From positions 4,945,754 to 5,009,753 of the forward strand of contig FN649736.1 of the NCBI GenBank assembly GCA_000310025.1: DNA of 64,000 nucleotides, written 5' to 3'. Below, piece by piece: positions 25,029-63,300 of the stretch (within the stretch, counting starts at the first letter, position 1; the number at the start of each line of letters is the position of its first letter). Source of the DNA: Ectocarpus siliculosus (Eukaryota; Sar; Phaeophyceae; Ectocarpales; Ectocarpaceae). The notes beneath the pieces were generated by a model. That model saw only the letters and a program-made list of their open reading frames with translations. It was not told where the DNA came from and searched no databases. The position numbers and the translations under genes are program-made.

Positions 25029-28000
25029 ATGATTCGTGCTTCCTCTCTCTGCCTCGGTCTGCTGGGGTCTGCCCTCATCATGTCCCCCGGCAGCAGCGGT
25101 ACCAGCAGCACAACCTGCGACTCGGGATCTTACGCTTTCTTTCAGGCGAATGGATATTGTGATAGCGCCCTAAACAACGCAGAATGCGGTAAGTGACATA
25201 TCGAGAATTAATATAACGTTCTAGGTTGGCGACGTGTGTCTACAAGCTACTGATGGTTTGGGTTCTCGGTCGCTCCCCTTCAGCGTCTCACACTCCCCAA
25301 AGGCCACCGGAGAGGATCGCGCACCAAAACGGTGTGCTCTTTGCTCTCGCGAGCAGATGGTTCACAGACCTTGGGAAGCATTCGCCATTTCCTCTCCTTC
25401 TTCAGTCGTACTGCGATAGACCAAGTCCTACATGCCCGAAATTCTCAACATGACAAACTCCCGGTGTGCGCCTTGGTTCGCGTGGTGGGCATAAAACACG
25501 GCAGGTGCCCTCTACTGTATGTACTATTGTGTACCCGCCAACTATTCTACCGTGGTGGCAGCTGTTGTTGTTGCTGTTGATGTTGCCGTTGATGTCATCG
25601 TCGTTGGTGTTTTGGTCTTCGTATGGATATCTAGAAAATACCTCCTCTTCCGTGCAGCTGAAGTCGATGGACGAGTGCTGAGAGGTTAGAAGCTGATCTA
25701 CGACAAGGCACAGAAGGACGAATGAGTCGGGGGAAAACAGCGAATACCCAACAAAGCTAACCACTTGCCGTGGGTAGACTAGCCCCTCAAACATACGGGA
25801 AAGATTCAGAAGTAAATCACACCTCGAGATGCGATCAAAACTCGTTCATGTCGGGAAACAAGTCCGTATGATACACAATTGGTGTGAGCGTTTTTCATTT
25901 TTCATTTCGTAGACTCATCTCAAGCTTTTTTCAGGTCGTCTCACACACCGAGAGTGGGCCTGGTCGTCGAAGATCTAGCGAGAGACAACCCCCGTTTTCG
26001 TGGGGGTGGGGCTGAACAATTCCACGTTGTTTCGTGGTGGCCCTCGGTGGTGTACTTTGCTGTTCCCTAAGCTCCCAAGCGTGACCAGCGTAACCTTCTG
26101 AGGCACCGTCCCTCGATTTCTGTCATTTTTGCTATTTGCTCGGGCTATCCAGGAAAACGCTTACTGCGGAGTACCTATGTCGGAATGGTTCGTAGGCATT
26201 CTAGGTATTTGGTAGTTTTGTAGCAGTGTTTCCTGTTTTGGGTGATATTTAGCGTGTATGTGACCTAGGTAATCTGAAGTGAACGTTGCCTTTTGGTTAA
26301 CGAATATAAGGTCCTGCGAAAAGGGTTTGCGCTGTTGCTTGTGAGGAAACATCAACAAAAACGGGTATGGACGAAGGGAAAAGCTCGCACTTCGCTGCGG
26401 TACCTTGATCAGGACCGAGCCGTGAGATAGTGAAGGTTGTCGGACAATTTACTGACCCACCCGGGAAGAAGTCGGCGTGCTCTAGTCGGTGCGTCTCCTC
26501 CTCGACGAAATGCAGTCAATTGTCATCGCTAGCGGTTTCAAGGGTGCCGGGGATCGACTAGAGGCGGTCTGATGTGGATATTTTTCCCTGTCCCTCAGGC
26601 TACGACGGCGGCGATTGCTGCGAGTGCACCTGTGTCGACGCCTCGTATCTCTGTGGCTACGTAGGCTTCGCCTGTATAGACCCGGCCGCGTCGTGTGTGG
26701 ACGACGACTACATCACCGCAGAAATTGCGGAGAGCTGTTACGATGGTGGCGGCTACGTTTCCGATGTTGGCAATGGCTACTGCAACGAATCAAACAACAT
26801 CGAAGAATGCGGTGAGTCCAAGCACGATTCTGGATTGGGATAGATTGCTGTACAGAGGAGCGGGGAAACCTTAATGATTACCTAAAAACATTACCTAGAA
26901 GAAATATGCCCGGGGGCGCCGGGGCACAACTAAATGTACCACTCTGCTACATAGTGGAACTTACACCGATAGGATAGAATAATGCAGTACTCATGCTTGC
27001 TTGCAATTTTGGCAGTTTGCGATATCCCACGTGGCACGTGGAGCCAGTGGACCACATGGATGCATGAGGAAAATAGCTGCTATAGCTGCTTTAACTTGGA
27101 CTAACGAAGCATTTTGGAAGTCACAATCTCCAAAAGAGGTATGGTTAGTGCCAATTGATGCAAGTACTTTGTGATTTGCGTTGGATCGCCTTGGACAATG
27201 GGTATCAAATAGCGAGGGGGCCAGAGGTGCATTTTGGTGGCATGCTTGCCGCCAACAAGACCTTTCTTTACAAAGTTCATTTTTCTCGTATAAGATGATA
27301 TGCTCTGCTCTCTCTCTGGACGTAACGCGTGCTTGCTTGCTTTCTCTTGTTGCTCATACTACAAAAGACAGGGTATGCCATCATTTAGTGTAGTATGTGA
27401 TAGAGAAAAAGCGAAGGCCACCCGCAATCCGAGGCCCGGGGGTACATCAGAGGTGTTGTCCTGACTATCCTCCCATGATTATCCTCCCATGCATGTTGAG
27501 CACTTGTTTCTCTTCTTTGCTGGTACTTTGTATGCCGTTTCGCAGATTACGATGGCGGCGACTGCTGCGAGTGCACGTGTGGGGATGAGTCTGGCGACCT
27601 TGACGACTTTTCCTGCACGGACTTCGCCTGCATTGACCCGAACGCACCGTGTGTTGACGACATCACCGACGGCATGTTCGAGGGCTGCTTCAACTTCGGC
27701 GATGGATTCTGCGACGACTACAACAACAATGAACAGTGCGGTGCGCCAGAAAATGACTACCCACTTTCAAAATTTCTATCCCTGAAGTCGATTGAACGCG
27801 GGAAGGAAAAGGCGAGGGGTAGTTCTCGGCGCTACAAGTCCGAGGCATCGGGTTGTACTTCATGGGACCTTTAACCCTGTAGATGTAGGGCAGTGTACCC
27901 TATAAATCCCGAATGACAGGCCAAATTTGTTCTGACGCCTTACATTTGTCAGGTTACTGCGTTAGGAACACAAGCAGTACAATCACCGCGCATTTGATTC

Positions 28001-42400: not shown

Positions 42401-43264
42401 AGAACGCCCTGAACTTTTGATACCTGCAGAGGGTTTGTGCATAGCCCAATGATACTGGCCTCCGTTTGGCCAGCAGACGATGTAGTTCCTCGTTCTGGCA
42501 CGATCGGGGTGTGACCAGGGGGTACCCCCCCCCAATTCCAAACTGGAAATTATCAGCCGATCCAGTTTGGAAAATGGGCCTATTTTCCAACGCGGCAGCT
42601 GGGATCCTAGGAAATATTCGGCGATTTGGAATTTGGGCGTTAGGAATTGGCCAAATTCCTCCGCGTAAGACGCTCAAATAATTAATTGGGCTGAGAAAAG
42701 GAGCCCCCCCCCAATAAAAATCCCGAAATAATCTCGGCCTGAACGAGCTTTTTCTTGCGAAAGGGAGTTTTTTCTCTCGCTCACGTACCTGTCAGTGGAA
42801 AGCGCTAGTCTTGTGTACACAAGAGAGAAGAACCGCCGAAGTCTTCTCGCGTTAAAAATCAATAGGCAAGCACCGCAGAAAGAGGGAGTGGGGGCCTCAG
42901 GGAGAGGAACCTTTTGTGTGACCACGGTTCAGATGTTCTAGCAAGATGCCCCACTCTTGAAATAAATGTGAAGACCAAAAAACCAAAAATCGCAAGCTGC
43001 TGCTGCTGCTGCTGCTGACTGTTGTTGTTGTCGTGTGGTGGGTGTCCTCCCCTCTATCTTGTGTCTTACCTGGGCCGGCACGGGAGTGAGGGCTTCGCAA
43101 GCCCAGTTGGCCTCTCCGAGGTCGCCCTCGCAAAGGCTGACCGGCTGGCCTTGCACACCTGCTGTAGAAAAAAGGAGGAGCAATGACGCCGTCGTAGCAG
43201 CAGATGCAGCCGCGGCAGCAGCGCTTGAGAAAACCCACGACGACGCCGAAGAAGTGCGACTCAT
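33479..43264 (-). CDS. Secreted metallo-beta-lactamase-fold protein, ten exons
   Basis: Metallo-beta-lactamase-fold hydrolases cleave varied esters, amides or thioesters; the substrate here is unknown. Exons: 43264-43070, 37848-37614, 37296-37177, 36867-36579, 36195-36147, about 35847-35793, 35653-35583, 35287-35095, 34333-34207 and 33514-33479 (TGA), about 455 codons. Exon 1 encodes a signal peptide (ASLLLLFSTAGVQG) and fits exon 2 in phase; this link over a 5.2 kb intron is inference. Fold marks: AALFDAPEG, YTHKPLDHIGGAGF, IHAHQPGDLFIF, VVDTVFPGW and YDFDVLMAGHLTRMGTKADV. The HxHxDH site reads HKPLDH, so the second metal-binding His is Pro. Two junctions do not splice cleanly: 37177/36867 is off by one base with GT-AG, and 35793/35653 leaves the wrong phase. 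These may be non-canonical introns, sequence errors or decay. A LINE lies in intron 1. Confidence 0.72.
33868..33932 (-). mobile_element. 5'-truncated LINE 3' end, divergent
   Basis: GGGGGGGGTACTCGCGATCA, then TGCATGCCCTAGTCGGCAGA, parallels the G-run plus GTACTCATGTTTTGCATGCC signature of other LINE termini in this window (minus orientation). The match is short and diverged. Confidence 0.4.
36910..36985. repeat. GTT/GGT trinucleotide microsatellite
   Basis: Runs of TTG/GTT and GGT repeats lie in the intron between exons 3 and 4 of the metallo-beta-lactamase-like gene, just upstream of the exon 4 acceptor on the minus strand. The Asn/Thr runs in overlapping ORFs come from it. Confidence 0.8.
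38619..39969 (-). pseudogene. LINE reverse transcriptase, palm/thumb and C-terminal part
   Basis: Two overlapping ORFs, 39969-39382 and 39416-38619, continue the element after two more frame breaks. The first carries the catalytic FADD box (LMFADDFVG) and the thumb region. The second ends with a CxC...H...C knuckle typical of LINE C-termini, then a short basic tail. The protein encoded at 56500-57512 is a close relative and confirms the reading frame. Confidence 0.8.
40147..41397 (-). pseudogene. LINE reverse transcriptase, N-terminal fragment
   Basis: This 416-codon ORF carries the finger and first palm motifs of a LINE reverse transcriptase: GNYRGITLLSTVGK, GQAGFRPDRSCVDHVYTL and FFLDVQKAYDTVW with the first catalytic Asp. 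It starts after a frameshift from the endonuclease remnant and stops before the FADD motif, which is in another frame at 39950. It cannot make a full enzyme. Confidence 0.8.
41690..42400 (+). repeat. Minisatellite, three units of about 225-235 bases
   Basis: The landmark GTAGTTTGTGGATGCC recurs at 41779, 42002 and (one change) 42236. Each is followed by AAAGCCTCTCTCTGGC or similar. Units also share TTCGGTTCACGTTTACAGGC and GATCACAC. The array lies beside the LINE 5' end, in intron 1 of the metallo-beta-lactamase-like gene. Confidence 0.75.
42530..42670 (+). other. A+T-richer stretch with GGAAT/ATTCC words
   Basis: A 140-base stretch rich in AATTCC, GGAAAT and TTTGGAA words, unlike the surrounding G+C-rich DNA. 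No gene or clear repeat period was found. It belongs to intron 1 of the metallo-beta-lactamase-like gene. Confidence 0.35.
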
Positions 43265-43469
43265 CGCGACAGTAGCTGTGCTTCAAGGCGGTGTGGGTGG
43301 GTGCGGGTGTGGGTGTGGGTGTGGGAGAGGTGTGGGAGAGGTGTGGGAGAGGTTCGCTCCTTGTTGTGTGCAAAGGGGGCGCGTGCAGCGGGTGGGTCCA
43401 GAACGCAAAAACTTCCCGGTCGATACTACTCGCAGTATGTCCCGCCGTATGTCCCGCCAAACGGGAGAT

Positions 43470-43990
43470 TGATGGGCTGGGGCTGGCCTTACTGCTGGAG
43501 GCCGCAAGGGGGGAGGTGGCCAGGCTGCTGCTGCTGCTGCTGGTACTGCTGGTACTGCGGGTGCTGCTTCTGCTGCTGCTGCATCCTGAGCTCCAGGTTG
43601 CCGAGTTGTTCGGTTTGCTCAGACATCTGCAGCAGTGGTAGCTGGACTGGGTTGATGGGGGGAGGTGGGCCTCTCAGCCCGGCTGGCGCGGCTCCGCCCG
43701 CGTTCTGGTCTCCTCCTGCTGCCGGGGGCTCGTTGTTAGTTCCCGTCGCCTGTTGGTTTCCCGCCGCCCCTGCTGGCTGGTTTCCCGCTGCTACTGCCTG
43801 TCCGCCACCATGGATGGGGAGCTGCCGCGGCTGCTCCTCCTCCGCCGCCGCAGCTCTGTTGTTGTTGGTTAGCTGCGGGCGGCGGTCCGTCGGGAGGCGG
43901 CGGTGGTGGCGGTGGAGATGGCGCTGGCTGCGCTGGCTGCGCTGGCTGCAGCTGCTGGGGGGGGCCCTGACCCTACTGCTGAAAGTTGTT
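43470..43990 (-). pseudogene. Gln/Pro-rich Gag-like ORF in inverted orientation
   Basis: A long open minus-strand reading runs from about 43960 to a TAA near 43495. It passes through SQRSQRSQRHLHRHH, LTNNNRAAAAEEEQPRQLP, GPPPPINPVQLPLLQ and MSEQTEQLGNLELRMQQQQ. Its make-up (LLQ, short helix, Gln runs) resembles the N-terminal third of the Gag-like ORF that starts 500 bases away on the other strand (LLQQLVTQGSRQQQQIRSLQ). It may be an inverted fragment of a related element. No start or domain is certain. Confidence 0.35.
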
Positions 43991-44460
43991 GCCGTTGTTC
44001 ATCACTCCGGCGTGTCTACGACAAGATTCGATCAAATTCGATCAAGTTCCAAACGAAAACTCTTTTCGCTCGCTGCTGCTTTGCTGTTTGCTGTACTCTG
44101 TGGCTCAGCTCTACAGTCCTGGCCAGGTTCCAGGTTCTCACAAAAGGTTCCCTTTCTGAACCCCTTTGTCTACTTAGAAGGTTCCTAGAACTTTATTTCT
44201 CGTCAAAGGGCGAACCACCGCTCGCTACAGGAGCTACAGAGCCCTACAGGCAAATTTCCACAGGCAAAACTACAAATAAACCAGTCAAATAAACGGTGTT
44301 TGCGAACGGGAAGATTCAGTACGTATGTGAATCTGTGGTTTGAGGAGGCGTGTTGGAATTCGGAAAAGCGGGGATCGAAGAAAAATAGAGACAGCCTCGG
44401 TGTCAGAAAGTTTTTGTGCTCTCGCTTTGGGGTGCCGCCTAGGATTTGATCGATTTCGGG

Positions 44461-46465
44461 ATGGACGGCAATGACGGGCAACCGAGGGCGAACGGCGCCG
44501 CGGGCGTCGCGGTGGCCAGTCAAGGCAATCCGGCGGACGGCAGTCCCCCAAGCTCGGCCGCCCGTGGCGGGAACGCCCAGAACAGGCAGCAGCAGCAGCA
44601 GCAGCAACAACAACAGGCAGCAGCAGGATCAGCAGCAGCAGCAGCAGGCCAGGCGCCGCAGCAGCAGCAGCAGCAGGATCTCCAGCATGGCCACCCGCAG
44701 CAACAAAACGGCGGTCCGGCGGCAGCAATTCCGCCGCCGCCGCCCATGATTCACGGGGCCCCCCAACCTCAGGCAGCAACAGCAGCAGCCCCAGCAACAG
44801 CCGCAGCAACAGCAGCAGGAGGGCAGTGGGAGTAATCCGAACCTCTTCGCGCTGCTACAACAGCTCGTGACCCAGGGCAGTCGCCAGCAACAACAGATTC
44901 GGTCTCTCCAGGAACAACAGCAACAGATTCGGTCTCTCCAGGATGTGGTCGTAAATTTGACCGGCAACCGGCAGCCCGCCCAGGGCGCCGCAGCCCACAA
45001 CAATGCCCGGGATGGCCCCGCCTACAACAATAGTCAGTCAGTAGTCCTCCCCCTGGTCCAACCGCCGCCGCCGCCGCCGCCGCCGCAGCAGCAGCAGCAG
45101 CAGCAACAACCTCAGCAGCAGCAGCAGCAGCACCGGCCGCAGTCGCAGCCGCAACCATTGCAACAACAGTATCAACACCAACAACTCCAGGCCTACCCCA
45201 ACCAGCACTACCTCCAGTCCTCGTCGGCCGCGCCCCAGGGATACCAACAGCTCGCGAGCATCCCGGGGGCCGCGCCTGTTTACAATGCCCATCGGCTGAA
45301 AGAAGCCCAAAAGCTAGAGGGCCGCACGTGGGAAAAAGACGGCCAAGCGGCCCTGTACCTAATGCGAGGTGCTACCTTCTCGCCCATTGTCATGACGGGG
45401 GGCGAATTCGACCACATCATTCGGGACGTGGCCCACCCGCAACCGGGCCTGCACGCGCTGCTTACCTTCGGCGCCATCGACATTGCGGCGTTCTCGCCGC
45501 CGCGTCCCCCGGGGGTAGCGGCGGTGACACGCACGTTCGACGTGCATCTCGACACCTTCGTTCGCGTCCTGGAAGTCTTCATCAAGGACGGCATGGCGGG
45601 CGCCTCGCCGGCCGGGGCCGACAGGGTTGGCCTGTCTTTCCGGGAACTCTTCAGGATCTCCGAGGACCTCCGCCACTACAATTCCCGCCACTGCGCTGAG
45701 TTCAGGGGCCGCGAGGCCGACGTCTTCGCCAGGTTCAAGCAAGACGCCAACCTCGATTGGGCCGATTTCATCAGTCGTCTGACCACCGAAGCTAGGGCGC
45801 TCCGGCAGCGCAACACCCTCTCCCCTCCACCCCCCAATACGGTGGGGGCGATCCAAGTCCCGCAGTTTTCACGAACGTTGATCCTGATTGCGGAGGGTAC
45901 GGCTTCTTCGATGGTGGGTCTCCTGCAGGGGGGTCTAGCCCGTCAGCAGCAGCCAAAATCGGCCGCCGCTAGCACCAAACGCAAAGCTACTTCACAGGGT
46001 CAACCTGCCCGCACCCCCTCCGCACCAGTCGCATACTCTTCCACGGCAGCCGCCAACGCGTTTGCACAGACCGTTGCCGCCTGGAACACTCCCGACAACG
46101 AGTGCTTCTACACGTGGTCGGGCACGTCCTGCACACGCCCGCGGTGCGAGAAGGGGCACACCCAGCGGCACCCGTCACTCTTGCCTGCTGTTTCCTCCCC
46201 CCCCCCCCCCCTCCGCCCGCTCCGCCCGCTCGTGCCCCCCCTGCCCCGAGAGCGACACAAGCACCAGTCGCGAGGTACAGTCATGGAGGCGGCCGGGGAG
46301 GAGGAGCAGCTGGAGGAGGAGGAGGTGGGGGGCGCGCGGGAGGAGGCCGTGGCGGTACCAATCCGTGACGGTGCGGGCCCCACTTCCACGAGGTGGGGCC
46401 GACAAGGGGGGGTGGCGAGCTTGGCACGGGAGCGAATGCCTTTGCGGACAGCAGAAGGACAGTAG
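44461..46465 (+). CDS. Gag-like ORF1 with CCCH zinc finger, one frameshift
   Basis: The ATG at 44461 opens a reading (MDGNDGQPRANGAAG) with Gln/Ala runs that stops at 44835. The next frame carries on from about 44765 (EGSGSNPNLFALLQQLV) to 46465. The shift falls at a run of six C near 44760, so an indel or sequencing error is likely. The middle is Gln/Pro-rich. A folded part follows (ATFSPIVMTGGEFDHIIRD, GLSFRELFRISEDLRHYN, DANLDWADFISRLTTEARAL). Near the C-terminus CFYTWSGTSCTRPRCEKGH fits a C-x8-C-x4-C-x3-H zinc finger, suited to nucleic-acid binding. ORF2 overlaps its end. Confidence 0.75.
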
Positions 46466-46524
46466 CGAGCGTGGGAGTTCCCCTTCCCGGGTCGGTGGCA
46501 CCCGCTGTGTTTTACGGTGAGAGC

Positions 46525-49500
46525 ATGAGTTGCGAACCTGCAATTTCCCATACTGTCAACTGTTTGGATTCGTTTTCACCCTGCATAGTGGCGGACACCA
46601 CTCACGCAAAAACGTCAAAAACAGTAGCTACGGGGGCGGACACCCCGGGCGCTAAGTACGGGTCATATAACACACAAGCGGAGGACACCGCACTGGTGAT
46701 AGATAAGTCACAACTATTGGCGGACACCAATTATGCGAATATTGACACACACCGGGCGGACACCCGGTGTGAACATGCATTAACCTCACTCCCGCAAACG
46801 GTGGACGCCGTTCCCGCGAAAAACACACTAACGGAAAACCTATTGGCGGACACCAATAGCGGGATCAATAACTGCTCTGCCTTGTACTCCACGAAGACTG
46901 TGGTGGACGCCACACGTGATGCACAATGCAATGCAGTCGCCTCGGGGGAGGACACCTCGGGCAAATATAATTGGCCCCGCGGCACGCAAGCGGTGGACGC
47001 CGCGAGCGTTGTCGGTAAACAAAAAATACTGGCGGACACCGGTAGGGTGCAGTGTGAACACGCATTTCCCTCACTCCCGCAAACGGTGGACGCCGTTCCC
47101 GCGGAAAACACACTAACGGAAAACCTATTGGCGGACACCAATAGCGGGATCAATAACTGCTCTGCCTTGTACACCACAAAGACTGTGGCGGACACCACAC
47201 GTGCTGAACAATGCAATGCAGTCGCCCCGGGGGAGGACACCCCGGGCGACCATTATTGGCACCGCGGCACGCAAGCGGTGGACGCCGCGAGCGTTGTCGG
47301 AAAACAGAAAATACTGGCGGACACCAGTAGTGTGCAGAAGGACATACACGGGGCGGACACCCTGCGTAAGAATTTGTCAGTCACACAGCCCCGATTGGCG
47401 GACACCATTCGCGGGAACGACACGGAATTGGCGGACACCATGACCGTGTCAAAAGCTACCCCGGGGGCGGACACCCCGGGGGATGCATCGTTGGCACGTA
47501 GGACACTAGCGGCGGACACTGCTAGGGCCGCTGACATCACAAAAGTAATGCGACAGGGTTGCGGGTCGAATTCAGCGATTTCTCACTTTGGGGCGGGGAA
47601 AGAACCTCCGGCCCTAGAGAGTCCAAAAAAGACAACCTTTTCGAGAAACTTAAAAACTCTGACGGATAGACTCGAGGCACAGAGAAGCATGCTCGCGTCA
47701 AGCCTACACTCACTAGACGAGAAACAACGTATCATTGGGAAGATGGCGGATATTGGTAGTGATTTGGTAAAGCTCCACGATGGAAGGCTGGGAGACGTCG
47801 CGAGGGGAATCGGCGGCACTTTGGTGTCACCGCCGTTGGACGTGAGCGACGTCAAGCAGTATTTCGGAGAGGAGAAGGTTTTCCCGGGTATCGATGACCT
47901 CATGGAGATAGTCGGTGAAGGAGCCCCTGCCCCCACTCTAGTCTCGCAGAAAAATCTCAAGAAATCCTTGGCATACGGCAACCACCGTAGCGTAGACGAT
48001 CACCAAACACAAGTGTGGGAAAAACTATGCGACGATGTCAAGCGTAATAGGTGTATCGTCCTGAGAAAGGCGAACGCATCGGACGTACGTGGGATTAGAG
48101 TAGCTCCGTTGGGAGCGGTCCCAGGAAAAAAAGTGAGGATCATCAACGACTTCTCTTTTGACCCAAGCACAAGCAAGGGGTCAAAAGGTGGACTCAACAA
48201 AGATACCATCATGTCTGAAGTGCCACGTTGCCTGTGCGGCGAAGCACTACCAGCTTTCCTCGAGGAGCTCACTAGCCTACGGGTAAGATGGCCTGACAAG
48301 AGAATTCTCGCAGCCAAGGCTGATGTCACCTCAGCGTTCAGAAATGTTAGGATTTCACCAGAGCATGCTCACAACTTTTGCTACGTGATAGGAGACGTGC
48401 TAGTAGCGGATCTACGGCTGACATTTGGCTGGGCAGCTTCACCAGGATTGTGGGGTGTGTTAGCCTCCGCTGCAGAGCACTCGCACCGCAACACGTCCCT
48501 CGCGAACGCCCGACTACTACCAGAGGGAATCGCAATGATGTCTCACGTCAAAATAAAACCCCCTTGGGAAAAGGGCACCCCAACCCCAATACCTTCCTCG
48601 GCAGGCGTACAACCGCATAGAGGCGGTGGCCCCGCGGACGATTTCTTGGCCAGGGTCTACGTTGACGATTTCTTGCTCACGAAGGTCCAGCATGACCCCA
48701 CCGACGAATCGGCACTCATTGCTTCCGCCTCATTAGCTTCGGACCATGTCCGACTGTTCGGCGAGGGAGAAGTCGGAGAAACCCCCATTCTTGCCCCGAA
48801 AAAGAGCACCGACTGGGACACGGTCATAGAGGCCCTGGGGTACACCATAGACACGCATGATGGCAGAATTGCAACTACTCCCGAACGGGTAAGCGCGATC
48901 CGGAACACCCTAGAGGTAGCTTGGCCCCACGATAGGAAGGCCAGTGTTCAAGAAGTCCTCAGCATTGCAGGAAAACTTTGGAACCTCACCTATGTCATCA
49001 GGGCTGGTAGATACTTTGTGTGGCAACTGCTCCGCCTATCGGGTCTGCATACCCAAGCCAGTCGACACACACGGTCACGACGTCTAGTGGACTTGGGTAG
49101 AGAGTTCCACGGCGATATCGCCTTCTGGAAGTGGGCCCTCAACCAGCCCCTGGCCCATCGAGGGGAGTCCCTCAGCGCATCGTTTTTACTCCACGTTAAA
49201 CGAGCACCATCACGTCTCTACCTCTCAGACGCTAGCTTCACAGCGATTGGCGGCTACTGCCCCGAACTAAAGACTTTCTGGAGATACACGATCGAACCCT
49301 CACTGTCCGCGGAGCTCAAGCGCAAGGCGCAGGCAAAGGAGACGTCAGACATAACGATCAATCTGTTAGAACTCACGGGCATGTTCATGACGGCGTGGGT
49401 AGTCCAAATGATCCTGAAAGACCGACCCGTAGAAGAAGGGCAGTCGGTGTTGATGCGCGGGGACAACGTGTCAGCCGTCAGCTGGACTAACAGGTGTGGG

Positions 49501-49812
49501 GGGTCGCGTGACAGGCGCGCTAGCCTCATAATGAGACTCATGGGTAGGATGGAGATTTCTTGCGGCTGGTGCCACGTGGCCAAACACATCCCTGGTCGAA
49601 AGAACACACTCGCGGACGGGATTTCACGTTGGGAAGAAAACGAGATCGCCGCCAACGTAAGAATGCTCACGAAAGACTCAGGGTGGACACAACAGGATAT
49701 CGGGGAAGGGGGACGAGCGTTGCTCAGCATTATTCTCCAGAAGAAATTACCGAAAGATAGTCTGGACGACTCGGTATGGGACATTATGGTCCAAGGAACA
49801 AGAAATATCTGA
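46525..49812 (+). CDS. Reverse transcriptase-RNase H ORF2 with ADT-repeat N-terminus
   Basis: This 1095-codon ORF copies element RNA into DNA. The frame is open from 46393, but the first ATG is 46525 (MSCEPAISHTV). Residues about 20-335 are a low-complexity region with LADT, GADT or VDA every 10-25 residues, encoded by the hairpin array described separately. A helical stretch follows (LKTLTDRLEAQRSMLASSL). RT motifs come next: RIINDFSFDPSTSKGSKGG, ADVTSAFRNVRISPEHAHN, LTFGWAASPGLWGV and the catalytic YVDDF at 48658-48672. RNase H shows LYLSDASFTAIGGYCPE, INLLELTGMFM, RGDNVSAVSWTNR and HIPGRKNTLADGISRW, the latter two typical of DIRS-type elements. The frame is intact for the whole length. Confidence 0.9.
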   Translation: MSCEPAISHTVNCLDSFSPCIVADTTHAKTSKTVATGADTPGAKYGSYNTQAEDTALVIDKSQLLADTNYANIDTHRADTRCEHALTSLPQTVDAVPAKNTLTENLLADTNSGINNCSALYSTKTVVDATRDAQCNAVASGEDTSGKYNWPRGTQAVDAASVVGKQKILADTGRVQCEHAFPSLPQTVDAVPAENTLTENLLADTNSGINNCSALYTTKTVADTTRAEQCNAVAPGEDTPGDHYWHRGTQAVDAASVVGKQKILADTSSVQKDIHGADTLRKNLSVTQPRLADTIRGNDTELADTMTVSKATPGADTPGDASLARRTLAADTARAADITKVMRQGCGSNSAISHFGAGKEPPALESPKKTTFSRNLKTLTDRLEAQRSMLASSLHSLDEKQRIIGKMADIGSDLVKLHDGRLGDVARGIGGTLVSPPLDVSDVKQYFGEEKVFPGIDDLMEIVGEGAPAPTLVSQKNLKKSLAYGNHRSVDDHQTQVWEKLCDDVKRNRCIVLRKANASDVRGIRVAPLGAVPGKKVRIINDFSFDPSTSKGSKGGLNKDTIMSEVPRCLCGEALPAFLEELTSLRVRWPDKRILAAKADVTSAFRNVRISPEHAHNFCYVIGDVLVADLRLTFGWAASPGLWGVLASAAEHSHRNTSLANARLLPEGIAMMSHVKIKPPWEKGTPTPIPSSAGVQPHRGGGPADDFLARVYVDDFLLTKVQHDPTDESALIASASLASDHVRLFGEGEVGETPILAPKKSTDWDTVIEALGYTIDTHDGRIATTPERVSAIRNTLEVAWPHDRKASVQEVLSIAGKLWNLTYVIRAGRYFVWQLLRLSGLHTQASRHTRSRRLVDLGREFHGDIAFWKWALNQPLAHRGESLSASFLLHVKRAPSRLYLSDASFTAIGGYCPELKTFWRYTIEPSLSAELKRKAQAKETSDITINLLELTGMFMTAWVVQMILKDRPVEEGQSVLMRGDNVSAVSWTNRCGGSRDRRASLIMRLMGRMEISCGWCHVAKHIPGRKNTLADGISRWEENEIAANVRMLTKDSGWTQQDIGEGGRALLSIILQKKLPKDSLDDSVWDIMVQGTRNI
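46587..47530 (+). promoter_or_regulatory. Array of about 20 short hairpins with a near-constant loop
   Basis: The core GG-NGGACR-CC (loop mostly CGGACA, also TGGACG or AGGACA) recurs about 20 times. It is flanked each time by different arms that are complementary: AGTGG/CCACT at 46587, ATTGG/CCAAT near 46717, CACACCGGG/CCCGGTGTG near 46748, AACGG/CCGTT near 46798, CTATTGG/CCAATAG near 46850, TGTGG/CCACA near 46909, TACTGG/CCAGTA near 47312, and CTAGCGG/CTGCTAG near 47507. Some stems have one G-T pair, tolerated in sense RNA. A 285-base unit is tandemly duplicated inside (about 46790 and 47076), and the copies swap G-T for Watson-Crick pairs. The array is inside an open ORF, so RNA structure would be an added constraint. 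Role unknown. Confidence 0.75.
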
Positions 49813-50106
49813 CACGGCAAAGAGATCGAAGGTAGGGCAGTAGGACACCGCTCCGCGTTTCTGGTCGATCAACGAATTATCAAAGGAATTGAGATAACGA
49901 GTAAGCTGGAGCGGCGGACACGCATCACACTCACGGTTTCATGACGCCTTGATAAAATGGATAGCCGGGGGAGGCAGAGTTGGTTTGGACGACCAATTTT
50001 GCTGATCTCCCCTCAAGCCAAGTTGGGGCTATCCCGGGTTCGGCATGAATTTGTCGTACCTTAAAACGGAACCTCGAAATGTACGTATTTCCTTACGCTG
50101 TGAAAA

Positions 50107-51184
50107 ACCGGTGATCGAATATCAGGAACACAGGGAAAAGATGGCCGGGGAGGCACGAGCGACGAGGGGGAGCGGTTGGTCAACGCACTCACCTTCGGGT
50201 CGTTGGGAAGTGGTACCAATAAGGTGTATCAACGGATGTGGAACACGTGGAAGGAGGCTCGAGCAGGGGCGGGTTCGGGCCCGTGGCTCAGCGAGAGCGA
50301 GGGGGTGGAAAGTGCGGTGCGTGAGTTGTCTGTGTTCATGGCTTGCCGGTGTTTCGGTCACAAGAACCAGAGTCAGACTATTCGCGGGTATCTGTCAGCC
50401 ATCAAGTACTTCCATAAGATGCACGCAGGATGGGAGTTGCCCACTTCGCATTTCCAGATCCTTGCCATGTTGAAGACCATTGATAGGGTCCACGCCAATA
50501 CGCAGACGAAGCCTAAGATTAGGAATCCACTTTCGTGTGACATGCTAGCAGCTGGAAAGAGCGTGGTCGAACATTCGGGAGAATCAGGGAAGTTGATCTG
50601 GTGTGGACTTGCCCTCTCGTACCTGCTGATGTGCCGAGCTTCAGAAATCTGGGCGGACGACTCGGGGCTCGTGCACTCAGATTTTTGCCTGACTAGAGGA
50701 GACCTCGGTTTCTTTTGCGGTCCGGTAAGTAAGGGTTGCATGTGCAGACAGAAGGCAGGCTAGCCGAGTGGAAGTCACGTTCAGAGCGTCAAAAGCAGAT
50801 CAAAAACGTTTGGGAGCAACCGTCACTAGATCAGGAGAGGCGTTGAAGGTGTTACTGGATCTGTTAGATCTGCACCCCGAGCTCGGGAGTCACGCGCCGT
50901 TGATGCAATTGTGGACACAAGACAGGTGGAAGATAATTTCGAGGGCAGAGGCATCGAGACACCTCAGGTTACTCGTGAGCGTGGCGGGTAGAGACCCGCA
51001 GAAGTATGCATTGCATTCAGGAAGGATCGGGGGGGCCACGCACCTAGCAAGTATGGGGGCGTCGGTAATCCAAATTCAGAGAGCCGGGAGGTGGAAGTCA
51101 TCGGCTTTTTTTATGGTGTACGTTAGGGCTGGGGGTGAAGGAGCGAAGTTCGTGCCTCAGGCCCTTACGGAACCCGAGGAATGA
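50107..51184 (+). CDS. Tyrosine recombinase ORF3, frameshifted
   Basis: This is the integration enzyme of the element. The first part is open from about 50107 with no ATG (the first non-canonical start is TTG at 50176) and ends with TAG at 50761: KVYQRMWNTWKEA, TIRGYLSAIKYFHKMHAGWE, LALSYLLMCRASEIWADD. The second part is in the next frame, from about 50768 to 51184: VTFRASKADQKRLGATVT, YALHSGRIGGATHLASMG and RAGRWKSSAFFMVYVR. Together they carry the family's catalytic set: Arg in LMCRASEIW, H-x-x-R in LHSGR, a Trp in GRWKS and the Tyr in FFMVY. One base gained or lost near 50750-50768 explains the break. Confidence 0.82.
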
Positions 51185-52890
51185 CCGGGGAGCGGTTTCG
51201 GAGGAGTAGGTCATCAAACATGCCTAATGGAGTAAGATATGTTTAGGCCAGAGGCCGAAACAATAGTAATGATAGGAGGGCAATCTTGGGAAGTTTGCAA
51301 CGGGTTAGTCCGATAAGAAAACGTTGGGAGCAAGACGGCATTTTACCTGCGCTCTCAATTTGTTTCATGTGTCTTGGTTTTTCTTTGGTTGCCTGCAGAA
51401 AAATAATCCAGAATTCTTGAGCAAACATAAACATCTGATTCTGGTCTTCTTGTCTTGGTCTTTTTTTTTTTTTTCATAATTTGACACAACGAAACCATCT
51501 CTATCATAGAAAATAGTCTGAGACAGATTAGCAATGGATTCATAGCGTCAGAAAGTACCTGTATGTCTACGATTTCCCAGACAGCATATAGGGACATCTC
51601 CCCTGCGGGTAACAGGCTCAACAAGACAGTTTGGTAGCTGTCTTGTGTGTCTCATATATGTTATGTTGGGAAGGTGCAGATGATATGTCCGATGGATCTT
51701 TAGGAATCTGGTCTTTATTAGACCCGAGAAAAGATGCTCCGAGTTTGTCTTGCTCAGTTTTGTCTTTGAACGAACAATTTTTCATTGGCCTACACACACA
51801 CCCCGAGATACTCCCGACGTCCTCCCGCCCTACAGACGCCGCACCATCCCATGAAGCTGCCGAAACACACACAACTCGGCCGTCATAGGCGACACCATGG
51901 CGAACCAACTACATACAGCAGTCAGACAAAGTCATGCACCGCAGACCCGATGCGCATTGCATGCTGCCGACATGGTGCAACTTTTGCGTTAGTTATCCTA
52001 GATGTATATGGGTGAACCGAAGCATGCCGCTCTACATCCATGCTCACAAGTGACACATCAAGCCGGCGTTGAGGAGGGTGAGGCGGTGAGGCGGGCGGCA
52101 TAGATCTCAGGAATGTGGCACAGGTGGAGGCGGAGGTGATTGATGGAGTTAGGGATGCTTCAAGCGGCGTGGGAGCGTGAGGAGCTGCAGCGCGTGGGTC
52201 CTGTGGACCGTGCTGCGGTGATTCGTTTGACGGGGAACGATCGACTCCGTCGACGACTGACTGCGATGTGTATCACAACTTGTTCGCGTGCTGAAGGGGT
52301 ACACACATGCATGCCTCAGCTGTTTGCGGCGCTACGCTTCCCATGCGCTCCCGGCAACTGAACTGGGCCAACCGCCTATTCGTGAGCGAGTACGTTGTTG
52401 TTGCTCCATCAGTATTCTCCATGACTACTTAGTTATAGTCAGCTGGGGGTGAGGGTTCAGTTAAAATAGAGTCGTGGTAGCCTTGTTGGGGTGGAGGCGG
52501 AAGGTCGGAAATAAATATGTTTCGTGTTCCGAGTCGGCCCAACCATCTGTCTGCCGCCGCCGGCAAAGGGGCTTCGTCGTATTGAACGCAATTTTCTTGG
52601 AAATTTCCGCGTGCTCAAGACCGAAAAAATCACACTCGAGTCTTCGCAAGCAGTTTTGAAACACAATTCCGGTCTTGGTTTTGGACTTGCTTCCGACTTC
52701 AAAGACCAAGACCTGAGATCAGTCCGCAAGCACCCTAATAACCTCCTCTGACGCTATGGATTCATTGCTAATCTATCTTAGACTCTCAGATAGAGATGGA
52801 TTCGTTAATTAAAAGATAATAACTTAATTCCGAATGGGAAAAAAATTGTTTCCCGGAATGGTTCTCGGAATCGCCCATTCTCTCCGGAGA
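51185..52890. other. Retroelement 3' flank with an inverted-repeat pair
   Basis: No gene is supported. A poly-T run lies at 51460-51474. About 55-base imperfect inverted repeats lie at 51495-51552 and 52747-52799. ORFs within (for example 51618-51908 minus and 52140-52361 plus) show no recognisable domain. The left side should include the 3' non-coding part of the retroelement. Confidence 0.4.
51495..52799. mobile_element. Possible inverted-repeat element (about 1.3 kb)
   Basis: The left end reads CCATCTCTATCATAG, then GACAGATTAGCAATGGATTC and ATAGCGTCAGA. The right end, reverse-complemented, reads CCATCTCTATCTGAG, then GATAGATTAGCAATGAATCC and ATAGCGTCAGA. Nothing inside resembles a transposase. 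It could be a non-autonomous DNA transposon or a chance relic of two insertions; no target-site duplication was established. Confidence 0.45.
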
Positions 52891-55063
52891 GAGAGAGAGA
52901 GGTCACGACAGGAGGACACAGATAACAGAGGAGCACCACAGGACAGAGCAACAGAGACGAGCAACAGCAAGATTTGTGAGTGAGCTTGAGTTCTTTTGTA
53001 CTCCGAGCGTTATTTGTGTTGTTATTTCAAGCACCCCCACACCGCGCTGATGATTTGCAGCTGATTCATCCGACAAATTGCACATGTTTTTTTCTCCCAC
53101 ATTTTGTTCCCAACGTGGTTGAAGCACAGCTTGACTGCGGGTGCCAGGAGAGGCGGCCGGATTGTGCCTCACATGTACCACCCTTCTTCTGGCCAAAACT
53201 GATCTCATTTACCCACGCAAAAACGCGCACAAACGAAGGCCGGTATAATAGTAGTGGTTTGCTTCCAAACAACACTCGGTAGCAGCACGTACACAGCAAG
53301 CAGTTAGTTAAATGTGCCGCTTCCCACATTTTTTCCAACAGTTTTTTCGTTCCTGTTCCAGAAGCAAGCGCAGGAACAACAAGGCTCGAGAGCGTGATTT
53401 GGGTTTGGGAGACTTGTGTTGTAATAAAAGGTCGGAAGAAGCTTTTGGTTGAGAGCACGGGTGAGATGTTGCAAGAGAACGATGCACTGCTGCTGTAGTG
53501 AGAGATATAATGCTCGAGGACGTTCAAACGAAAACGGATGCAAGAGACCTACAGCAGTGTGTTGTACCTTGTTTGTTTGCGGGGTGTTCAAGATCCGAAG
53601 AATGCGCCTGGTACACTTCTCAGGAAACAGAAAATCTCTCTCTGTACACATACATGCATCATGCATGCATGCGGAATTTATCCGCCGCCGCCCATAATCG
53701 CCGATGAGTTTCATGTTGTTCATAAGAGGGTCTTGCTTGGGAAGCAACCTACGCACATCATAGGTGCCACTGACATACGGATTAGTCCTGGTACGGCGAA
53801 TAGAAGCCTACCTGATGAGCCGATCGTGATGAGGGATGTACACAGCAGCAGCCACCGTCTCCAAATGAACAGCTCTCTTTGACCCTGTATTTTGCACCAT
53901 CACCGACACTTCTTCGCTGTTTCCCACGGAAAAGAGGACCCAGAACACCTCTCCTGGTTGTCTTCACACTACAGCAGCAGTAGGACCTACACCTGCTACT
54001 TAGTATGAATGAGTACGCTGTAGATTTGAGACCCACACAAAATACCGTAGGTTGCGTAAGATACCACACCCCCGACTAACTCTAAGCCCGAACACTCCAC
54101 AACGGGTGACGGTGTCGAGAAATTGACGTCGTTGGAACCATCTCTTCGACAGATTTCCATATAATACTGGCGGCCTCCTCCTCATCATGATGAAAATCGA
54201 GATGCAAAAAACCTGGGGTGGGTATGGTATCTCATGCAACATACGTACAACATACATATGCATACTAAAACAACATACATAATACGCTCATACTTGTTTA
54301 TTAATCTCTTGGAACAGCAGTGCTTGCTGTTGCCTTGCTCTCAAAGGTAGACTGAGCACAGAGGGGGAGGACATGCTCCCTCTAAAAGGGGCCACAAAGG
54401 TCCTGTCCCCTGTTTTATCCTTCCATCGGGAGTTACATCTCCCGCACTTTCCTCTGGGAATTACTCCGCAATAATACCGTTGGCACTGGCAACATTCAAA
54501 TCCCATAACACTAGCCCACCCTGGAGGTTCTCATACACAGATACTTGAAACCTAGGAACTTGACAAATAATTGTCGAATCCCAAAAAATGAAAGGATCGA
54601 GGATGTGGAGCTCCAAAATACCAAGAATCACCCTCCCACACCTCTCACACGATGAGGCGCAAGACCATCGTTTGACCAAACCAAAACATTCAAATCCCAT
54701 AACATCACCAAGCGCGAAGCGCCTTGAGGTATTCGGCGAGTCGCATGAAGGGTGCGCTGCATCTTGCGAAGGGTGTTCGGCATCTTGTGCTTACTTCCTT
54801 GCGTACGGATGACAGCTGCGTATGACTCAATTTGTTTTCTGGTGCTTTCATTTCCAAAGACAGTTAGAGCACTGTGGAACTGCCTTGAGGATGCTTGACC
54901 ATTTTAACACAACGTGGTGCGATCATCCCCCTTTGCGCGGAGTGAGGGCTCTCCACGCCGCACAACATGATATACTCGACCACCATTATGGTTACCGCCA
55001 AAAAAAAAAACAAAGGTAAAAAAAAAACGGTAACCTGGTTGCCGAGTTCACGAAGTGAATTGG

Positions 55064-55262
55064 CTTCTTTTACAACGTCGCTGCCAAGCGACGAAAACCC
55101 AATCCCGAAGGCAAACACCGAGGGGGGGGCTTGTTTTACAACGTCGTTGCCAAGCGGCGAAAACCCAACCCCGATGGCCAACACCGGGGGGGGCGGCTTG
55201 TTTTACAACGTCGTTGCCAAGCGACGAAAACCCAACCCCGATGGCAAACACCGGCGGGGATG
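55064..55262 (+). repeat. Tandem repeat, three units of about 66 bases, each with a hairpin
   Basis: Units start at 55064, 55130 and 55197 with CTT(C/G)TTTTACAACGTCG and end in a G run. Each holds a seven-pair stem with loop GCCA: CGTCGCT/AGCGACG, CGTCGTT/AGCGGCG and CGTCGTT/AGCGACG. The differences replace Watson-Crick by G-T pairs but keep the stem. Confidence 0.75.
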
Positions 55263-60382: not shown

Positions 60383-63300
60383 ATGATTCGTACTTCCTCT
60401 CTCTGCCTCGGTCTCCTGGGGTCTGCTCTCATCATGTGTCCCGGCAGCAGCAGTACCAGCAGCACAACCTGCGACTCGGGATACTCGGGATATTACGATC
60501 CCTTTCAGGCGGATGGGTGGTGTGATTACGCCTTAAACAACGCAGAATGCGGTATGTGACATATCGAGAATTCATATGACGTTCTAGGTTAGCGACATGT
60601 GTCTAGAAGCTATTGATGGTTTGGGTTCTCGGTCGCTCCCCTTTAGCCTCTCACACTCCGCAAAGGCCACCGGAAAGGATGGCGCACCAAAACGGTGTGC
60701 TCTTTGCTCTCGTGAGCAGGTGGTTTCACAGTGCTTGGAACTATTCGCCGTTTGGTCTCCTTGTTCAGTCATACTGCGATAGACCAAGTCTTTCACGCCC
60801 GAAATTCTCAACATGAAATACTCCCGGTGTGCGACTTGGTTCACGTCGTGGGAAGAAAAAAACACGGCAAAGATGCTCCCTACTGTACAGTACCCGCAGC
60901 GAACCATTCTATGGTGGTAGCAGCTGTTGTTGCTGTTGTTGTTGCTGTTGATGTCATCCTGGTTGTTGTTTTCGTCTTCGTCCGTTCCTCTTACCTACAT
61001 CCAGACAGTACCTCCTCTTCCGTGCAGCTGGAGTCGATGAACGAAAGAATGTTGATTGGTTACAAGCTGATCCACACAGGGCACGGAAGGATGAAGAGTC
61101 GGAAAAAAACAGCGGGTGCCCAAATAAGCTGACCACTGCCGTGGGCACACTAGCCTCTCGAACATGCGGGAAAGAATTAGAAGTAAATTACACCTCGAGA
61201 TGCGATCATAAACTTGTTAAATTCGAAAACGGGTCCCTTTGTTACACGAATGGTGTGGGCCTTTTTCATTTTTTCATTTCGTAGGCTCATCTCAAGTTTT
61301 TTTCAGGTCGTCTCATGCTCCGAAAGTGGGCCTGGTCGGCGGAAATCTAGTGAGAGGCAACCCCCCTTTTCGTAGGGGTGGGACGGAACAATTCCAAGTT
61401 ATTTCGTGGTGGCCCTCGGTGGTGTACTTTGCTATTCCCTAAGCTCCCTAGCGCGACCAGCGCAGCCTTCTCCGGTACCGTTCCTCGATTTCTGTCATTT
61501 CTGCTATTTAGCTCGGACAATTCAAGAAAATGACTAACAAACTGTATTGGGTGATATTTAGCATATGACCTAGGAGGTCTGAATGCTGCCTTTTGGTTAA
61601 CGAAGATAAGGTCTTGCGAAAAGGGTTTGCGCTGTTGCTTGTGACGAGACGTCAACAGAAATGGACAAGAACGCAGGGAAAAGCTCGCACTTCGCTGCGG
61701 TACCTTGATCAGGACCGAGCCGTGAGATAGTGAAGGTTGTCGGACAATTTACTGACCCACCTGGGAAGAAGCCGGCATGCCCTAGTCGGTGCGTCTCCTC
61801 GTCGACGAAGTCCAGTCAATTATCATCGCTAGCGGTTTCAAGGGTGCCGGGGATCGACTAGAGGCGGTCTGACGTGGATATTTTTTCCTGTCCCTCAGGC
61901 TACGACGGCGGCGATTGCTGCGAGTGCACCTGTGTCGACGCCTCGTATCTCTGTGGCTACGTAGGCTTCGCCTGTATAGACCCGGCCGCGTCGTGTGTGG
62001 ACGACGACTACATCACCGCAGAAATTGTGGAGAGCTGTTACGATGGTGGCGGCTACGTTTCCGATGTTGGCAATGGCTACTGCAACGAATCAAACAACAT
62101 CGAAGAATGCGGTGAGTCCAAGCACGATTCTGGATTGGGATAGATTGCTACAGCGGAGAGGGAAGAACCTTGTGGCGATCCAAAAACAATACCTGGCGGC
62201 ACCGGGGCACTATTTAGTGTACCACTCTGCTACATAGTTCACCGAAGGATGGAAGTCACAATCTCCAAAAGAGTTACGGTTAGTGCCAGCTGATGCAGCT
62301 ACTTTTTGAGTTGCGTTGCATCGCCTTGGACAATGGGTATCAAATAGCGAGGGGGCCAGAGGTGCATTTTGGTGGCATGCTTACTGCCAACAAAACAGTT
62401 CTCCTTTTCAAAGTTGATTTTTCTCAACGTGGATGACGTGCACTGTGCACGTAAAGCGTGCTTGCTTGCTCTCTCTTGTTGCTCAAACTACAAGACAGGG
62501 TATGCCATCATTAGAAATAGGGAAGGCCACCCGTAATCCCGAGGCCCGGGGGTACATCAGAGAGGTGTTGTCCTGACTATCCTCCCATGATTATCCTCCC
62601 ATGCATGCTAAGGGCTTGTTTCTCTTTTTTGCTGGTACTTTGTATGCTGTTTCGCAGATTATGATGGCGGCGACTGCTGCGAGTGCACGTGTGGGGATGA
62701 GTCTGGCGACCTTGACGACTCTTCCTGCACGGACTTCGCCTGCATTGACCCGAACGCACCGTGTGTTGACGACATCACCGACGGCATGTTCGAGGACTGC
62801 TTCAACTTCGGCGATGGATTCTGCGACGACTATAACAACAACGAACAATGCGGTGCGCCAGAAAAAATATTTATATCCCTCAAGTCGATTTGAACGCGCG
62901 GAGGAAAAGGCGAGGGGTAGTTCTCGGCGCTACAAGTTCGAGGCATCGGGTCGTACTTCATGGGACCTTTGACGCAGTAGATGTAGGGCAGTGTACCCTA
63001 TAAACCCCGAATGACAGGCCAACATTGTTCTGACGCCTTTACATTTGTCAGGTTACTGCGTTGGGAACACAAGCAGTACAATCACCGCGCATTTGATTCG
63101 TATCGCTCAACCTTGACCTCGATCATTTCCTCAACTGTTGTTGCGTTCTACTTCTAGTCTAGTACGCGCGTGCACTTCTCGCCCATTCAACGGACACAAA
63201 GTGCGTGGCTACAGACAGACGTGATACACGAAGATTGACTGCCCTTCGTTTCTGATTGTTGTTCCTTACCTGCTCCTCAGGCTATGACGGTGGCGACTGC

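Follow-up and report, generated by a model that had tools for sequence, protein, structure and literature searches.

Retrotransposons of the Ngaro group of DIRS elements carry a Gag-like first open reading frame (ORF1), reverse transcriptase (RT) and RNase H motifs in a second (ORF2), a tyrosine recombinase ORF and split direct repeats. The element considered here has a Gag-like ORF1, putative RT and RNase H motifs in ORF2, a putative tyrosine recombinase frame and, as seen in its C112 copy, the split direct repeats; it lies in a 64,000-nucleotide stretch of the genome of the brown alga Ectocarpus siliculosus (contig FN649736.1, positions 4,945,754 to 5,009,753; "the window" below, in whose coordinates all positions are given, on the + strand unless stated). 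According to the accessible text of two papers, Ngaro elements are diverse in Ectocarpus, with 15 families (PMC12477816), and follow an A1-[ORFs]-B1-A2-B2 plan in Cafeteria (PMC8547959). Neither main text contains the word "hairpin" (0 occurrences each), whereas the window element carries a hairpin array. For the array itself, the closest described systems include the dispersed packaging signals reported, in the accessible text, for hepatitis B virus (-RGAG- loops) and enteroviruses (purine loops; PMC7612645, PMC7793301) and for satellite tobacco necrosis virus (PMC3593212).

An initial annotation of the window had pointed to about 20 sites with a common core in a retroelement coding region, and had proposed selection for RNA hairpins with a common loop. 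There are 22 such sites, in one codon frame; complementarity of their arms goes far beyond chance, the arms covary from site to site, and at the nucleotide level both loops and arms are constrained. Judging from these sequence patterns, the array very probably consists of nucleic-acid hairpins maintained by selection.

Results

The array occupies 46587-47525, and each of its 22 sites has the core GG-NGGACN-C (GGNGGACNC), read in the frame of an open frame of 1147 codons (46369-49812), ORF2. The form GGNGGACNCC is present in 21 of the sites; over both strands of the 64 kb it is matched 22 times where 2.70 matches are expected (a count attained in 0 of 100 shuffles), the sole match outside the array being at 43041-43050 on the minus strand. 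At the cores the encoded peptide is ADT, VDA or EDT, and by tally the core loop is carried by 13 of the 16 perfect hairpins of at least 5 bp in the array stretch. A 285-bp tandem duplication inside the array (46767-47336, two copies 93% alike by sequence comparison) accounts for six of the 22 sites as copies. A search for loops of 4-9 nt common to at least three different perfect 5-bp arms found no second such array in the 64 kb.

The complementarity of the arms was compared with that left after exchanging 3' arms among sites, a control that keeps composition and codon phase. Watson-Crick pairs fill 85 of 132 arm cells over the 22 sites, against 44.8 (standard deviation, sd, 5.2) after swapping, and 60 of 96 against 31.5 (sd 4.5) in the 16 sites that remain without the second 285-bp copy; neither value was reached in 20,000 swaps (0/20,000 each). 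The summed folding energy is -195.6, against -138.4 (sd 10.3; 0/1000) with swapped arms. Among 19 distinct sites, 79.7% of 133 cells are paired, against 60.4% when shuffled and at most 45.1% when the partner is slid by one to three columns, a control that preserves relatedness. Cells departing on both sides from the commonest pair number 27 (shuffled 9.5, sd 2.4; slid at most 13), and the covariation score is 0.486 (shuffled 0.153, sd 0.035, 0/500; slid at most 0.164). Two of the five covariation measures were unremarkable: both-side-changed pairs (5 vs 4.2; 193/500) and further pair types (16 vs 13.0; 42/500). The third pair from the loop is formed in all 19 sites, variously as U-A, G-C, C-G and both wobble types. 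Pairs 1-5 of these sites comprise 82 Watson-Crick, four G-U, no A-C and nine other cells, with an A-C cell at pair 6 of the site at 47352.

For local folding, the initial annotation had suggested a comparison with codon-preserving shuffles, and 0 of 200 of these fold as well locally as the array (z -4.1), nor do any of 200 dinucleotide shuffles (z -5.0); folded whole, 46570-47540 gives z -6.16 (20 shuffles). No folding excess appears in the element's gag stretch or in two of its RT stretches (z -1.4 to 0.6).

Copies of the element were located via RT in a genome of 189 Mb in 492 contigs, the RT search giving 68 matches, with 61 of 376 candidates scored. Eleven of 38 loci fetched upstream of RT hold an array with at least 12 sites and 27 do not, some of these 27 being truncated or containing N (100 in L007, 1645 in L017), so that absence is not established for each. 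The 11 array loci and the window form a 12-copy alignment, from which a set of nine close copies omits L006, L020 and L030, which have fewer sites. For diversity, arms were taken as pairs 1-5 whether paired or not, and columns gapped in any copy were dropped; a separate count of stem changes used stems with at least 70% pairing, which biases its diversity figures, and arm and spacer diversity was recomputed without that choice.

In the nine close copies, 13 of 204 arm positions, 2 of 120 loop positions and 80 of 470 spacer positions vary. The arms are about seven times less diverse than the spacers at third codon positions, with 0.0075 and 0.0523 (1 of 5000 permutations), and at second positions the values are 0.0073 and 0.0423 (19/5000); over all 12 copies the third positions give 0.0152 and 0.0699 (4/5000), and the second positions 126/5000. 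Spacer diversity is level across the three codon positions (0.049, 0.042, 0.052), unlike that of the neighbouring coding stretches (RT start: 0.026, 0.007, 0.029, from 14 variable sites; ORF2 N-terminal segment: 0.0085, 0.0084, 0.030, from 9 variable sites), and the peptide between the hairpins therefore seems nearly free. In older relatives (L050-L053, compared pairwise only), arms are more alike than spacers in all five aligned stretches, with identities of 0.85-0.88 for arms, 0.66-0.79 for spacers and 0.74-0.91 for loops. One pair in hairpin 18 appears across copies as A-U, G-U and G-C. The arrays of L002, L003, L004, L018, L019 and L031 have 57 nt more than that of the window (56 in L018), and module number seems to vary, mostly in multiples of three.

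The ends of the six-base loop in the window are C..A in 14 sites, T..G in five and A..A in three; among a set of 90 distinct, partly dependent rows, C..G is absent and T..A occurs in five, and switching between C..A and T..G is also seen in other copies and relatives. The duplicated sites at 46902 (TGGACG) and 47187 (CGGACA) have identical arms and differ at both loop ends, as if positions 1 and 6 moved together. C-A and U-G are able to form similar wobble shapes, so the functional loop may, as a suggestion only, be GGAC on a wobble-closed stem. The loop complement was also considered elsewhere in the element and rejected: TGTCCG occurs four times and TGTCC seven times in 43000-53000, with no cluster.

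The individual hairpins, numbered along the array, differ in how they were recognized. Core matches that were also folded singly are hairpins 1 (46587-46602, AGTGG/CCACT), 3 (46678-46691, GCGG/CCGC, loop AGGACA), 4 (46716-46731, ATTGG/CCAAT), 5 (46748-46771, CACACCGGG/CCCGGTGTG), 7 (46840-46859, CTATTGG/CCAATAG), 8 (46899-46914, TGTGG/CCACA, loop TGGACG), 10 (46990-47003, GCGG/CCGC, loop TGGACG) and 22 (47506-47525, CTAGCGG/CTGCTAG, one G-U). Further core matches are hairpins 6 (46797-46812, AACGG/CCGTT, loop TGGACG; 57 of 200 shuffles fold equally well), 11 (47027-47044, TACTGG/CCGGTA, one G-U; RNAfold favours another pairing here) and 17 (47312-47329, TACTGG/CCAGTA), as well as four copies: hairpin 12 (47082-47097) of 6, 13 (47125-47144) of 7, 14 (47184-47199) of 8, with loop CGGACA rather than TGGACG, and 16 (47275-47288) of 10. 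Hairpins 2 (46631-46647, CGGGG/CCCCG), 15 (47226-47246, CCCGGGG/CCCCGGG) and 21 (47459-47481, CCCCGGGG/CCCCGGGG), each with a 7-nt loop, come from a listing of perfect hairpins, and 2 and 21 were also folded singly. Single folding likewise gave hairpins 9 (46941-46961, CTCGGGG/CCTCGGG including G-U pairs, 7-nt loop), 18 (47349-47364, CGGGG/CCCTG including one G-U, followed by an A-C mismatch and more pairs), 19 (47389-47415, TGG/CCA with outer helices and a T-T mismatch) and 20 (47419-47450, TGG/CCA, a 3x3 internal loop and GACACGG/CCGTGTC), the last also read in the sequence. Every arm pair listed by the initial annotation is present, its internal-loop site lying slightly upstream of where it had been placed (47425-47463). 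Of 16 sites folded singly, 15 gave the expected core hairpin (exception: 47025-47046); as single hairpins they are modest: from site to site, between 0 and 57 of 200 shuffles fold equally well.

In the loci read from elements whose RT is 53-65% identical, different repeats occupy the position of the array. Lineage B (L005, reverse complement 957-2400; relatives L007, L034, L021, L049 and L054-L056) has its own in-frame hairpin array, with a 120-nt unit, where the window array sits. Its hairpins include CCCCG-TTAC-CGGGG, CCAATA-CGTG-TATTGG and CTAGTG-GNAA-CACTAG, with CCGGCG-TGAA-CGCTGG beside the unit, and they are flanked by near-constant AGACC and GGAGA. None of 200 codon-preserving shuffles folds as well locally (z -4.6, inflated by tandem copies), and 27 of 45 distinct units rank above 95% of their shuffled versions in folding, a figure that is no more than indicative, since the search pattern favours CC...GG. 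In lineage C (L008, L010) the spacer between gag and RT is an SDT/SP-rich repeat with hairpins recurring 684 nt apart. Hairpin arrays are thus not found in every lineage, and lineages A and B differ in what stays constant; a Gag-like ORF1 with a CCCH motif occurs in A, B and C.

The carrier is, by its sequence organization, a Ngaro-type tyrosine-recombinase retrotransposon. The A1 part of its split direct repeat (44305-44426) matches at 97.5% the A2 position that lies beyond the ORFs, on their downstream side, in the C112 copy, and the B1 part (51252-51431) has a second match, 100% over 180 nt, farther downstream in that copy. In C112, A2 follows directly after B1 and is followed by a second 180-nt B, giving A1-[ORFs]-B1-A2-B2; in the window copy only A1 and B1 are seen. 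ORF1 (44750-46465, stop to stop) is Q/P-rich, has no Pfam match, and is Gag-like by its position and CCCH motif only; the putative CCCH-type finger, CX8CX4CX3H (46103-46159), was found by eye in the translation, and similar motifs occur in sister lineages. ORF2 (stop to stop) comprises an N-terminal segment (46369-46521) kept across lineages A, B and C (five sequences from the three share 16 invariant columns), the hairpin array, and a putative RT and RNase H region (47998-49809) with YVDD and RGDN motifs recognized by eye. Its RT has no Pfam match and is 38% identical to the L046 ORF, which weakly matches RVT_1 (E 0.018, below cut-off). The putative tyrosine recombinase frame (50104-51184) consists of two overlapping pieces in different frames (50104-50763 and 50729-51184), with HxxR and Tyr assigned by eye; the second piece matches Phage_integrase with E 0.001 and 19.3 bits, below the curated cut-off of 27.1.

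ORF1 and ORF2 overlap by 97 nt (46369-46465), with ORF2 in the -1 frame, which suggests frameshifting or reinitiation for ORF2; the array starts 122 nt past the ORF1 stop. Scans of viral_contigs and genome_contigs with the single RT protein, which reach close relatives only, found no relatives outside this genome. The loci of other recombinase families numbered 11, six with runs of N, and those used further were L049 (lineage B array) and L046 (RT frame). Rfam gave 0 matches in the window at gathering score; two sub-threshold matches lie in or beside the Q-rich ORF1.

Two other repeats were seen in the window. At 55062-55259 a 66-67-bp unit is repeated in tandem about three times (91-92% matches), with no apparent relation to the array, and a 14-bp tandem pair, TGACTATCCTCCCA, is present at 27462-27491 and 62574-62603, 35 kb apart, possibly in two copies of one element.

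Discussion

What might such an array be for? Each module would be a short hairpin presenting a near-constant loop, C/U/A-GGAC-A/G, and the loops would be bound, site after site, by a single RNA-binding protein, for which the Gag-like ORF1 product with its CCCH finger is the likeliest candidate. Many Gag-like copies could gather in this way on the full-length RNA, tagging it for packaging into particles and holding it with its reverse transcriptase. The modules seem to multiply by duplication and then to change their arms with pairing kept. Constant loops on variable, covarying stems are what a loop-reading RNA-binding protein would be expected to select, a protein reading double-stranded DNA being expected to keep the arms; and because a CCCH Gag-like protein is encoded just upstream, multivalent recruitment of Gag, for RNA selection and particle assembly, is the first choice. 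The mechanism as a whole, an RNA element within a Ngaro ORF2 together with Gag binding, is a tentative proposal, in which our confidence stops a little short of even.

A wider and more speculative possibility, somewhat less probable than that mechanism, is that this fast-evolving region of Ngaro ORF2 is "RNA-first" coding filler: the peptide would be nearly free, the real product would be a tandem set of protein-docking hairpins, and their grammars would have been invented separately in sister lineages (in A the loop is constant, in B the base of the stem and the flanks) as Gag changes.

Several observations weigh against recognition of an RNA loop by Gag. The link to Gag is one of position and analogy, making the protein a candidate ligand only, and a single-sequence structure model of ORF1 is too poor for use (mean pLDDT, the predicted local distance difference test, 32.9). 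In HIV-1, according to the accessible text, replacement of the GGAG loop hardly altered packaging (PMC7599994). In lineage B it is the base of the stem and the flanks that stay constant rather than the loop, which makes a single common ligand less than obvious, and the gag-RT spacers of lineage C show no significant hairpin excess (z -0.7 and -0.9). At first codon positions the arms are not significantly less diverse than the spacers, either in the nine close copies (1040/5000) or in all 12 (762/5000), and over the 12 copies loops are no less variable (9 of 78 positions) than arms (16 of 133). Those 12 copies contain 1282 stem cells, and 30 of these depart from the commonest pair: 20 break it, 10 keep a pair by a change on one side, and none is a double compensatory change; about half of random transitions retain a pair, so the 10 of 30 give no support for compensation within copies. 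Arms changing without compensation, the outcome that the initial annotation had regarded as contrary to its proposal, are thus seen in part. By tally 22 of the 30 changed cells are confined to one copy, and the set includes decayed copies, some with stop codons and four of the eight close copies besides the window with 1-2-nt indels in the array. Some of the 20 pair-breaking cells are at pair 1 of sites seemingly lost in a copy, and are possibly misaligned.

The strand is also in question. The strand preference is weak: over pairs 1-5, G-U to A-C is 4 to 0 in the window sites and 35 to 11 in the 90 rows, a set gathered with a filter slightly favouring G-U, and over pairs 1-7 it is 5 to 4 and 47 to 40; the changed cells, by tally, are newly G-U in seven cases and newly A-C in six; and the gain from the correct arms is equal in sense and antisense folding. 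These figures too count against the reading set out above. A sense-strand RNA would be the natural reading, not one demonstrated over DNA or antisense. The initial proposal of selection for RNA hairpins therefore stands as to the hairpins, through covariation between sites, the codon-preserving shuffles and the low third-position diversity of the arms; a sense RNA strand would be its presumptive part, and so would the suggested roles (binding of the Gag-like CCCH finger, in packaging, priming or ORF2 translation).

Of the alternatives, the one that survives best, while still unlikely, is that the hairpins bind a host protein, or promote RNA export or stability in the manner of a constitutive transport element, rather than binding Gag. 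The same sequence evidence bears on it, in that near-identical loops repeated on one RNA suit any single-ligand RNA-binding protein, but the lineage-specific hairpin grammars of A and B would, by argument, better fit a fast-changing partner encoded by the element itself.

The equivocal strand figures lead to a second alternative, rather less probable: that the hairpins work in single-stranded DNA or cDNA, in template switching, in dimer or circle formation, or in docking of the recombinase. Ngaro elements are thought to pass through a DNA circle, the folding energies show no strand preference, and the changed cells have no clear bias to G-U over A-C. However, in recombinase sites it is usually the spacer that varies between constant arms, the reverse of the pattern here, and the window sites have four G-U and no A-C in pairs 1-5.

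Barely behind it is the possibility that the array slows ribosomes or otherwise tunes ORF2 expression past the ORF1/ORF2 overlap. Its place within ORF2, 122 nt past the ORF1 stop and downstream of a -1 frame overlap, would be consistent with this, but the overlap is distant from the array and separated from it by a conserved segment, and a brake needs stable stems but can do without a common loop, whereas in the nine close copies it is the loops that vary least.

The palindromes could also be functionless copying errors from template switching by the reverse transcriptase at the core, which appears improbable. A retroelement polymerase could use one arm as the template for the other, and the same-arm duplicates at 46902 and 47187 differ at both loop ends; against this, the arms are less diverse than the spacers, 13 of the 16 perfect hairpins in the array have the core loop, and the gag and RT stretches have no comparable excess. 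Selection on the protein repeat (ADT, VDA, EDT), with the palindromes as a by-product, is very improbable: all 22 sites do share a frame and encode a short common peptide, but beyond it the arms are complementary across codons for differing residues, synonymous shuffling weakens folding, and spacer diversity is flat over codon positions.

If the array is indeed a signal for packaging or assembly, it would offer a compact, testable handle, with one loop motif and one candidate protein. In that event it would further give a clear example from nature of a translated stretch shaped mainly by RNA fold, in which the duplicated modules are built-in replicates of stem covariation. Among open-licence papers, nothing comparable was found on hairpin arrays in retrotransposons or stem-loops in Ngaro, and RNA selection or packaging by tyrosine-recombinase retrotransposons did not surface as a studied question.

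How, then, does the array compare with known signals? Retroviral psi has few hairpins, placed in the 5' leader, and CCHC knuckles, versus 22 sites in ORF2 and a CCCH finger here. The psi hairpins, such as the GGAG tetraloop of HIV-1 and the GACG hairpin pair of murine leukaemia virus, are like the array in their G-rich exposed loops and in a Gag with a zinc finger (HIV-1: PMC7599994; for the murine virus, a title in its references), and in the accessible text the zinc knuckles of HIV-1 nucleocapsid grip GGAG loops (PMC7599994). Dispersed RNA packaging signals, as presented in the accessible text of the papers cited at the outset, share other parts of its design: many stem-loops per RNA, a common loop motif and differing stems. 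Unlike those signals, for which the coat-protein contact has its counterpart here by analogy only, the hairpins of the array are consecutive in one coding stretch and in one codon frame, and their arms covary among duplicated modules.

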